Below the pieces are notes generated by a model. That model had not been told where the DNA came from and made no database searches. It worked only from the letters and a program-made list of their open reading frames with translations. From NCBI GenBank assembly GCA_902560565.1, contig CACEMG010000006.1, positions 1 to 61,174 of the forward strand: a DNA stretch of 61,174 nt. Reading direction: 5' to 3'. The stretch comes from an uncultured Pelagibacteraceae bacterium (GTDB lineage: Bacteria; Pseudomonadota; Alphaproteobacteria; Pelagibacterales; Pelagibacteraceae). Both the position numbers and the translations under genes were made by a program. This document shows positions 7,188 to 9,389 of the stretch, in pieces; within the stretch, counting starts at the first letter, position 1, and each line of letters starts with the position of its first letter.

Positions 7188-8102
7188 TTAAATTTTGATC
7201 TTATTTAACGCGTTGTTTTTAAACAAATTTGCTTCTTGAATATATCTTCTAACCATTTGTGTAGTTTTATGTCCTGTCATTGCCATTATACTTCTTTCAT
7301 CTGCACCTATTTCTGCAGTTGATGTTGCAAATCCTGATCTTAAACTATGACCTGCATACTTACTGTTATCTAAACCTGCTATCGAAGCGTATTTTTTAAT
7401 AGTAAGTGCTACTGTTTTATCAGATACTTTAAATACCTTGCCATTTTTTATATTTGAATATTCGATCCATTTTTTTAAGGATATGACAGGGCAATAAGTT
7501 TTATTTTCAAAGTAGGGGATTGCCTTTGTTAACCCTATACCTGTTTGGTCAGTTTTAGATTTTGTTACAGTTAATTTTACTCCTTCTTCTACAAAATCTA
7601 CATCTTCATATTCAATCGATACAAGTTCAGATCTTCTAAAGCCTCCAGCGAAGCCAATTAATATTAAAGCTTTGTTTTGGTATTTCTTTGATTCATTCTT
7701 TTCTTCATCTATTACATTAATTATTTTTTTTAAATCATTGATTAATAAAGGTTTTTTTGATGTTTGTTTAACTCCCAATTTTCTTTTAATACCCATAATA
7801 TTTTCAGTAATAACTGGATGTTTAGTGTCAATGTAATGCCCTTTTAATCTATGAACTACTTTGATAGACGCTATTCTTCTCTTTAAAGTACTAAATTTTG
7901 AGAATGAACTTAAATGGGTGAGGTATAAAGCTATTATCTTTGGTTCTGTTGGTAATGAATTAAATCCATTCTTTGCACAAAAGCTTGAAAAGTCTTTAAA
8001 ATCTGCCTGATAAGCTCTCAAAGTATTTTGAGCTTTAGAATTTTTCAAATTTTTTAACGTTTCAATTTCTAAGTTTTTTATGTCAGTAATTAATTCATTC
8101 AT
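7188..8102 (-). CDS. tyrosine-type site-specific recombinase/integrase
   Basis: 304 aa. Residues about 15-115 form a SAM-like core-binding domain and the rest the catalytic domain. The catalytic set is visible: Arg156 in GFRRSEL, a Lys near 181-183 in VTKSKTD, HSLR (His252, Arg255), His278 in TGHKT and the nucleophile Tyr287 in RRYIQ. All residues are present, so it should be active. It could be a phage- or island-type integrase. Its promoter is overlapped by a perfect 11-7-11 inverted repeat, and it lies between a fucosyltransferase and unknown membrane genes in the accessory stretch. Confidence 0.92.
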   Translation of the reverse strand: MNELITDIKNLEIETLKNLKNSKAQNTLRAYQADFKDFSSFCAKNGFNSLPTEPKIIALYLTHLSSFSKFSTLKRRIASIKVVHRLKGHYIDTKHPVITENIMGIKRKLGVKQTSKKPLLINDLKKIINVIDEEKNESKKYQNKALILIGFAGGFRRSELVSIEYEDVDFVEEGVKLTVTKSKTDQTGIGLTKAIPYFENKTYCPVISLKKWIEYSNIKNGKVFKVSDKTVALTIKKYASIAGLDNSKYAGHSLRSGFATSTAEIGADERSIMAMTGHKTTQMVRRYIQEANLFKNNALNKIKI

Positions 8103-8106
8103 AAAA

Positions 8107-8135
8107 ATTTCCGATAACCATTAATTATCGGAAAT
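8107..8135. repeat. perfect 11-bp inverted repeat with 7-bp spacer (dif-like palindrome)
   Basis: The left arm is ATTTCCGATAA (8107-8117), the spacer CCATTAA, and the right arm TTATCGGAAAT (8125-8135). Arms ending in ATAA and starting TTAT around a 6-8 bp centre are the layout of Xer/dif and other tyrosine-recombinase core sites. It ends four bases before the recombinase start codon and overlaps the recombinase -10 box. It may be a crossover site, an operator for autoregulation, or a leader hairpin. Confidence 0.8.
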
Positions 8136-8829: not shown

Positions 8830-8919
8830 GCAATGAAAAAAGTTATCCCCACTATTCACTAATTTTAGAAAAAAAATAAAAAAACAATCAAAAAGTGATT
8901 AATACAACTTATTATTATT

Positions 8920-9116
8920 GGTATTGTTGCAGTAATTAAGAGGCAACTCTTAACTGACCGACTGGGGAAATGCCGAGAGGACCAAGCCAGGAGGCAGAAA
9001 GCTTCGCAGAGTAGCGCTAAAATTGTGAGGCGGGAGGCATGGCGGTAGCGCCTACAACGACGTGCCAAAACAACTGTTCTTTGCACTGTAAAAGGTGCAA
9101 GGAAACAGGGGTTTTT
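8920..9116 (+). ncRNA. candidate structured non-coding RNA of unknown class
   Basis: About 200 bases are far richer in G and C than the surroundings and hold no convincing gene. Paired elements are visible. TTAAGAG (8936-8942) pairs with CTCTTAA (8947-8953) around a GCAA (GNRA) tetraloop, extended by CAG/CTG. TTGT-AGGCG (9023-9032) pairs with CGCCTACAA (9049-9057). A long 3' hairpin has CTGTT and TTGCAC (9074-9086) pairing with GTGCAA and AACAG (9095-9108), followed by GGGGTTTTT. The tetraloop and the T-run both favour the plus strand. I see no tmRNA, RNase P, 4.5S or common riboswitch signature. It could instead be a leader of ogt. Confidence 0.45.
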
Positions 9117-9119
9117 AAG

Positions 9120-9389
9120 ATGAAAGGTACATTTTTTCAAAAAAAAGTTTGGAACTATTTAAAAACTATCCCAAAAGGTCAGGTTAGAACTTATAAACAA
9201 GTAGCAATAGGCATTAAAAGACCAAAATCGGCCCGTGCAGTTGCTAATGCATGTGCTAAAAACCCTTATGCACCCCAAATACCGTGTCATAGAGTAATTA
9301 GATCAGATGGAGGGCTTGGAGGTTACTCTGGAATAGGTGGAATCAAGAAAAAGCTCCGATTACTTAGATCTGAGAAAGTAAGTATTTAA
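9120..9389 (+). CDS. ogt: MGMT-family methylated-DNA-protein cysteine methyltransferase, minimal form
   Basis: 89 aa. This is only the C-terminal winged-helix catalytic domain of Ogt/MGMT; typical Ogt is about 160-170 aa. The active-site motif PCHRVI (Cys56) is intact, so it is not an alkyltransferase-like (PWHR) protein. Other family marks are GQVRTYKQVA (about 20-29) and GGLGGYSGIGG. It transfers alkyl groups from O6-alkylguanine to itself. An in-frame ATG upstream at 9039 would add 27 Cys-rich residues read through the RNA-like region, so I chose 9120. Confidence 0.8.
   Translation: MKGTFFQKKVWNYLKTIPKGQVRTYKQVAIGIKRPKSARAVANACAKNPYAPQIPCHRVIRSDGGLGGYSGIGGIKKKLRLLRSEKVSI

Follow-up and report, generated by a model that had tools for sequence, protein, structure and literature searches.

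The orphan RNA IMES-2 in SAR11 bacteria: a probable free-standing small RNA in which two hairpin loops appear to pair

The locus and its RNA class

The window analysed here is a stretch of 61,174 nucleotides from an uncultured Pelagibacteraceae bacterium (GenBank assembly GCA_902560565.1, contig CACEMG010000006.1, positions 1 to 61,174). A gene for an XerD-like tyrosine recombinase, scoring below the NCBIfam cut-offs, occupies 7188-8102 on its reverse strand with glycosyltransferase genes beyond it, and an ogt-like gene (PF01035) occupies 9120-9389 on the forward strand, its start codon having been chosen here in place of the start in the ORF list (9039). Between the two lies a GC-rich segment. 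GC content in 200-base windows reaches 0.47 at 8900-9099; most windows nearby have 0.15-0.36, and those of the ogt stretch 0.36-0.41, which agrees with the original prediction that this segment differs sharply in composition from its AT-rich surround. The predicted minimum free energy of 8925-9120 is -69 kcal/mol (z -4.1) and was equalled by none of 200 dinucleotide shuffles.

When the entire window was compared with Rfam, positions 8929-9068 of the forward strand matched IMES-2 (RF02035) at 135.6 bits, the cut-off being 54.7 (E 6.3e-35). The match, which is 55% GC, spans all 141 model positions (1-141) and is not truncated; nothing else in the window lies above cut-off apart from two tRNAs. 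The class had earlier been given as unknown, with a covariance-model search proposed as the check, and that search places the RNA in IMES-2 far above the cut-off. The earlier lack of a match to tmRNA or common riboswitch signatures is borne out, since there is no tmRNA among the Rfam matches and ARAGORN gives two tRNAs only; a tRNA or known riboswitch is ruled out by the same two scans. 6S RNA was also rejected as an identity, RF00013 being absent from the Rfam matches of the window. The coordinates first proposed for the structured region (8920-9116) hold, except that 8920-8928 is probably promoter and not RNA. The core of the RNA is thus set at 8929-9068 (+) by the match over 141 model positions together with the covariation described below, and the gene, with its terminator hairpin included, has its 3' end at approximately 9116. 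The absence of a believable protein frame is upheld by a count over 67 distinct full-length cores, in which the six frames are open throughout in 0, 0, 0, 1, 1 and 0 cores.

The IMES-2 family was reportedly described by Weinberg et al. in 2009, from marine metagenomes. No host or role for IMES-2, nor anything relevant on IMES-1, was found in the open literature searched. A passage of the giant squid genome paper places IMES-2 among matches that may derive from environmental contamination, a Red Sea metatranscriptome study (PMC5069720) names the glycine riboswitch, but not IMES-2, in its part on SAR11, and the relevant portions of PMC2864571 and PMC2217521 contain nothing on it. Membership of the present RNA in the family fits by every testable feature, namely score, covarying helices and marine host. 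The family itself was known; what is added here is the host family, the distribution, the upstream elements, the terminator and a kissing helix. Taken jointly, the identity as IMES-2, the status of a free-standing, regulated small RNA and the contact between loops 3 and 4 are judged to be quite probable.

Directly downstream of the core is a predicted intrinsic terminator (9074-9116, +), made up of a hairpin at 9074-9108 and a T run at 9112-9116; this is the long 3' hairpin ending in GGGGTTTTT that had been noticed before, and it is present as described. In 83 of the 84 loci, those to which the terminator count applies, a hairpin with a T run was found downstream of the RNA in 77 and was missing by the rule used in six. 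Within the genus of the window (g1; other genera are numbered likewise) the terminator helix shows compensating changes, with three of 480 cells non-standard. RNAalifold found no common helix in an alignment of ten terminators from mixed genera (A2), and the stricter rule of a promoter and terminator scan returned no terminator. The likely start of ogt falls three bases past the T run, and by eye no obvious ribosome-binding site is seen at 9112-9120. The ogt gene may be leaderless or may be served by read-through.

Four hairpins and the probable pairing of loops 3 and 4

The secondary structure was examined in an alignment (A1) of 51 cores, what remained of 68 distinct ones once the truncated L079 and 16 near-duplicates had been set aside; the partial match L085 was not used. 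A1 was aligned by sequence alone and is therefore not fitted to the pairing between loops 3 and 4 considered below. Over 45 pairs, those of the kissing helix included, 93.0% of 2273 cells are standard pairs and 33 pairs show double changes, a result reached in none of 500 shuffles. The original prediction of a structured RNA is thus supported both by the Rfam score and by homologues in which 33 of 45 pairs are changed on both sides, these being the compensatory changes that had been named as a check on the stems.

The first hairpin (8936-8953, +) carries the GNRA tetraloop, here GCAA, that had been predicted, and is paired in 100% of cells with double changes in four of its seven pairs. Hairpin 2 (8954-8997, +) contains an inner GAGA-capped hairpin; 95.5% of its cells are paired and nine of its 11 outer pairs are doubly changed. 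The window's own copy of this hairpin has, in the Rfam alignment, one deletion in the stem and four non-standard pairs. Hairpins 3 (9001-9031, +) and 4 (9036-9066, +) are likewise supported by covariation in A1. The stem of hairpin 4 corresponds to the nine-pair helix noted earlier, which stands in part: the nine positions are there (9036-9044 with 9058-9066), but at one of them the two bases are mismatched throughout the 51 aligned sequences. By eye, sequences from g6 and g9 (L069, L072-L074, L076 and L078) have the half of the RNA that holds hairpins 3 and 4 in clearly different types while hairpins 1 and 2 are near-constant, and the former half looks as if it had been exchanged between genera as a block.

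The loops of hairpins 3 and 4 contain the strands GCGCUA (9014-9019) and UAGCGC (9046-9051), which together would form a kissing helix of six pairs on the forward strand, and covariation across the 51 sequences supports this pairing. Standard pairs make up 96.1% of its 306 cells against 89.2% in shuffles, with none of 500 shuffles as high, and 23 cells are doubly changed against a shuffle mean of 4.2, again with none of 500 having as many; these counts take related sequences as separate and are not independent events on a tree. Control pairings slid by one to three columns were only 5-57% paired. The central two pairs are standard in 51/51, the first as CG in 41, UA in nine and AU in one, and the second as GC in 38, AU in 11 and UA in two. 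Among the other four pairs two are invariant, and each outer pair is broken in six of the 51. Of five measures taken over the whole helix, two were not above the shuffles: the count of doubly changed pairs (two) and that of further pair types (five), with 417 and 421 of 500, respectively.

The variation in the loops is concordant between partners. Loop 3 and loop 4 have the centres GCGC and GCGC in 29 sequences (g1, g5, g6, g7, g11 and g16), GCAC and GUGC in seven (g10 and g12), GUGC and GCAC in three (g6 and g9), GUAC and GUAC in three (g6 and g13), GUUC and GAAC in two (g14 and g17) and GAAC and GUUC in one (g9). This amounts to six loop combinations in twelve genera; six further g1 sequences have a break in one outer pair. 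Complete pairing of the four central positions between loops 3 and 4 is seen in 45/51 sequences, in every case by Watson-Crick pairs. Self-pairing, with G-U allowed, would be available to loop 3 in 37/51 and to loop 4 in 43/51, and these counts favour contact between the two loops over contact of like with like as the conserved interaction. Loops 3 and 4 appear to pair with each other. As the linkers between the hairpins are of 3-6 nt and the loops of 11-16 nt, it looks geometrically possible for the pairing to form within one molecule with the hairpins side by side; the covariation signature is equal for pairing within one molecule and between two. The Rfam structure line for IMES-2 leaves both loops open and marks no pseudoknot, which is no proof that its authors missed the contact since a covariance model cannot hold it.

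Host, neighbourhoods and absences

SAR11 bacteria are among the most abundant bacteria in the sea. IMES-2 was found in 259 of 397 Pelagibacteraceae (SAR11) genomes, covering 12 of 14 genera, in 76 of the 140 Pelagibacteraceae genomes at least 90% complete and in 30 of 101 near relatives; many genomes are incomplete and single absences accordingly mean little. Among the matches listed it is single-copy per genome. A sample of the class gave IMES-2 in three of 385 genomes, each of them Pelagibacteraceae and one of them the source of the window, and in a sample of the order our own model (R1) matched 108 of 247, all Pelagibacteraceae among the matches listed. A DNA pattern for hairpin 1 occurs in at least 119 named stretches, and the 80 listed are all titled Pelagibacteraceae, Pelagibacterales or Pelagibacter. 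The host of IMES-2 is SAR11, and within the genomes searched it is confined to one family.

The position of the RNA in the chromosome differs between genera. In all eight g1 loci mapped it lies between the tyrosine recombinase gene and ogt. Two of these (L103 in G029 and L104 in G054) have the recombinase-IMES-2-ogt block inverted relative to the flanking genes, with differing breakpoints. IMES-2 lies elsewhere in G118, not beside the recombinase. In g5, g6, g7, g9, g11, g13 and g16 it is found behind mnmA (Pfam tRNA_Me_trans in the one representative tested), facing a convergent gene of cluster 6, and mnmA also precedes it in g14, where the contig then ends. In g12 its neighbours are an SNase-domain gene on one side and an SRAP gene on the other, and in g10 it is beside SelO. 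Over 21 mapped neighbourhoods, with ORFs that overlap the RNA skipped (G110, G222 and G059), the next downstream gene is convergent in 11, co-directional in nine and off the contig in one.

These neighbourhoods bear on an earlier suggestion that the RNA may be a cis leader. It would then be a riboswitch or attenuator of ogt, with the terminator hairpin before the ogt start as the switch. In favour of this, in g1 ogt follows in the same direction in 8/8 mapped loci, and in the window its likely start three bases after the T run is so placed that read-through could feed it. As a general role a leader is excluded, because the next gene is convergent in 11/21 and the place of the RNA is not fixed; another gene follows in g10, and two genomes that do not have IMES-2 (G012 and G163) still have ogt, directly behind a GNAT gene. 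We consider a leader of ogt extremely improbable. The other suggestion made from this locus, that of a free small RNA, agrees with the comparison. The RNA, its two upstream elements (A and B, below) and its terminator stay together across at least three unrelated addresses, which argues for an independent transcription unit that is probably regulated. The most likely status of IMES-2 is that of a regulated small RNA transcribed on its own.

Absences of IMES-2 are concentrated in one part of the family. A tree of topA was built for 26 of 30 genomes asked (three gave no match and one had a broken gene), and all 11 genomes without IMES-2 fall in one well-supported Pelagibacter clade of 14; the same clade holds three genomes with the RNA, and outside it 12/12 have it. 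It follows that one subclade of Pelagibacter lost IMES-2, whether through repeated losses or with a later regain inside the subclade, and since many of its genomes are without the RNA, IMES-2 is dispensable. The subclade offers natural strains with and without the RNA for comparison. A tree of the recombinase was rejected as a species tree, as that gene adjoins a variable region, and topA was used instead. In one otherwise near-complete genome (G254; L321-L323) topA appears to be in pieces with stops, possibly through an assembly error. No hidden IMES-2 was detected by R1 in G012, G103, G117, G126, G135, G163 or G174, and Rfam gave nothing above cut-off in 19 IMES-2-less loci around the recombinase. 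At this site G012 and G163 have a small gene (DUF6356 in G012, where it was tested) and a GNAT gene between recombinase and ogt, and four more IMES-2-less genomes have the GNAT gene according to a regular-expression search. L129, L138 and other loci without IMES-2 have small genes here, be they DUF6356, GNAT or others.

The adjacent tyrosine recombinase in g1, the patchy presence of the RNA in that genus and its differing places among genera would suit an RNA of mobile or phage origin carried along with the recombinase. Comparison of the two speaks against this: the recombinase gene is present in 14/14 and 26/30 genomes whether or not IMES-2 is, and is apart from the RNA in those genomes of g5, g7 and g12 that were compared. 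A 20-mer from hairpin 1 had no matches in viral contigs (stem variants would escape such a search), and there is one copy of the RNA per genome. Very little credence is given to a mobile origin. As regards the recombinase itself, a dif-like palindrome lies beside its start (8108-8134), and such a palindrome adjoins the recombinase in 39 of 40 loci against two of 911 background windows. GC-skew maxima were noted at approximately 9381 in the window and, in an 18-kb stretch of G143, at 1,336,703, less than 1 kb from the recombinase. As the skew maximum is so close, recombinase and palindrome may be a chromosome-dimer resolution system at the terminus. A 'probable phage integrase' is listed for hypervariable region HVR2 of SAR11 in a passage of PMC2217521.

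Upstream elements and possible roles

Two conserved elements precede the RNA; the counts given for them refer to 77 and 81 distinct upstream regions out of the 84 loci. Element A (8843-8860, +) consists of two direct 9-mers one helical turn apart, TTATCCCCACTATTCACT in the window, and we take it to resemble a pair of DnaA boxes. Its family consensus is approximately TTATCCACAC-TATTCACA, and the repeats resemble TTATCCACA-C-TATTCACA. Of 77 distinct upstream regions, 70 contain it at up to three mismatches, whereas random 130-base windows from the same loci do so in 1.3% of cases; the pattern was derived from the same sequences in which it was counted. At up to one mismatch genome-wide, 15 genomes with IMES-2 have the site at IMES-2 and only three others, and six genomes without IMES-2 have none; as the 15 were chosen for matching at IMES-2, the informative figures are the three extra sites and the 0/6. 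A reversed control pattern gave four matches in all 21 genomes. The idea of a replication origin at IMES-2, which the DnaA-like boxes suggested, found no support, as the sampled skew of G143 there is a maximum and not a minimum.

Element B (8885-8901, +) lies near the -35 position, with the consensus CAACTAWAAAGTGATAC and the form CAATCAAAAAGTGATTA in the window. The GNGAT that anchored the search for it occurs within the expected 30 bases in 81/81 distinct upstream regions, a C ten bases before GNGAT is invariant (81/81), and most other positions are strongly biased. One exact form of the element was found in three of 15 genomes, at IMES-2 in two of the eight genomes with the RNA and once elsewhere; occurrence at IMES-2 in just two of eight suggests that this form is too strict. 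The match elsewhere is in G163, which is without IMES-2, and has no Rfam match above cut-off; it is flanked by a gene for a LacI-type regulator and one for a sugar-binding protein, as judged by eye. A -10-like box, TATTGT at 8922-8927 (+), is tentatively proposed from its position only, and transcription would then start near 8930-8935. An extended -10 was dropped as an invariant feature since it fits just 17 of 81 upstream regions, and a promoter scan found no sigma-70-like site on the forward strand between 8700 and 9500. Because elements A and B stay with the RNA when its address changes, its presumed expression is likely to be regulated.

Taken together, IMES-2 would be a free-standing small RNA, approximately 185 nt long, that is transcribed from a promoter of its own, ends at an intrinsic terminator and folds into four consecutive hairpins and a terminator hairpin, with a kissing contact between hairpins 3 and 4. 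Hairpins and kissing helix leave little of the RNA single-stranded. As nearly all of the conserved sequence lies in helices or in the mutual contact of the loops, a folded body is the most likely form in which it works. We suggest that this body is compact, that its action is in trans and that it either holds a protein or forms assemblies of its own kind; pairing with mRNAs by way of an exposed seed is not the mode envisaged. The RNA would be switched, and tied to growth or replication state, by a factor recognising element A, for which DnaA is a possible candidate. Taken separately, the protein-binding role is plausible and held tentatively, the argument for it being that no long conserved stretches are left unpaired, and control by DnaA is possible, if doubtful.

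It could be argued that loop 3 or loop 4 (GUAGCGC) targets mRNAs in trans and that the loop-loop pairing is a resting state. The loops are strongly conserved unpaired sequence in the Rfam model, and the G-U-A-G of loop 4 is invariant in 51/51. Against this, the loop centres change among genera and the partner loop follows, so that a fixed target would need to change too, and a base-pairing small RNA of this kind seems unlikely. A functional stand-in for 6S RNA, binding RNA polymerase and tuning transcription in slow growth, is suggested by searches with RF00013 (E up to 1), which matched none of 15 SAR11 genomes and six of 14 control genomes, Caulobacter among the six and four of them above cut-off. 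6S RNA has the architecture of a single long hairpin with a bubble. IMES-2 shares with it length class, free-standing status and a high degree of structure but differs in fold, being four hairpins in a row and not one long bubble-bearing hairpin. In addition, seven near-complete Pelagibacter genomes that have no IMES-2 also gave no 6S match, which indicates that IMES-2 is no general replacement for 6S RNA, and we regard such a role as very unlikely.

Two complementary and often non-identical loops, kept by paired changes, are a feature of the pRNA of phage phi29. IMES-2 shares with such interlocking-loop RNAs one tested feature, that of complementary loops with paired changes. It is conceivable, although quite unlikely, that IMES-2 is a self-assembling RNA, its dimers or rings held together by pairing of loop 3 in each molecule with loop 4 in a neighbour, and that DnaA governs its synthesis from a tandem DnaA-box promoter nearly unique to this gene. 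Were this the case, SAR11, in which no 6S RNA was detected, would couple replication state to an RNA particle. The large ornate RNAs ROOL and GOLLD are reported to form RNA-only complexes (PMC12286853). Whatever its role, the placing of this orphan RNA in SAR11 with a single copy, upstream elements and a loop contact that can be mutated makes it experimentally tractable.

Other candidate structured RNAs from intergenic regions of SAR11 were described in Pelagibacter ubique by Meyer et al. 2009 (PMC2704228), whose abstract and section on a fourth motif do not name IMES-2. That section judges the fourth motif to be a separately transcribed non-coding RNA with variable 3' neighbours. It is described as a three-stem junction, in contrast to the four hairpins in series of IMES-2.
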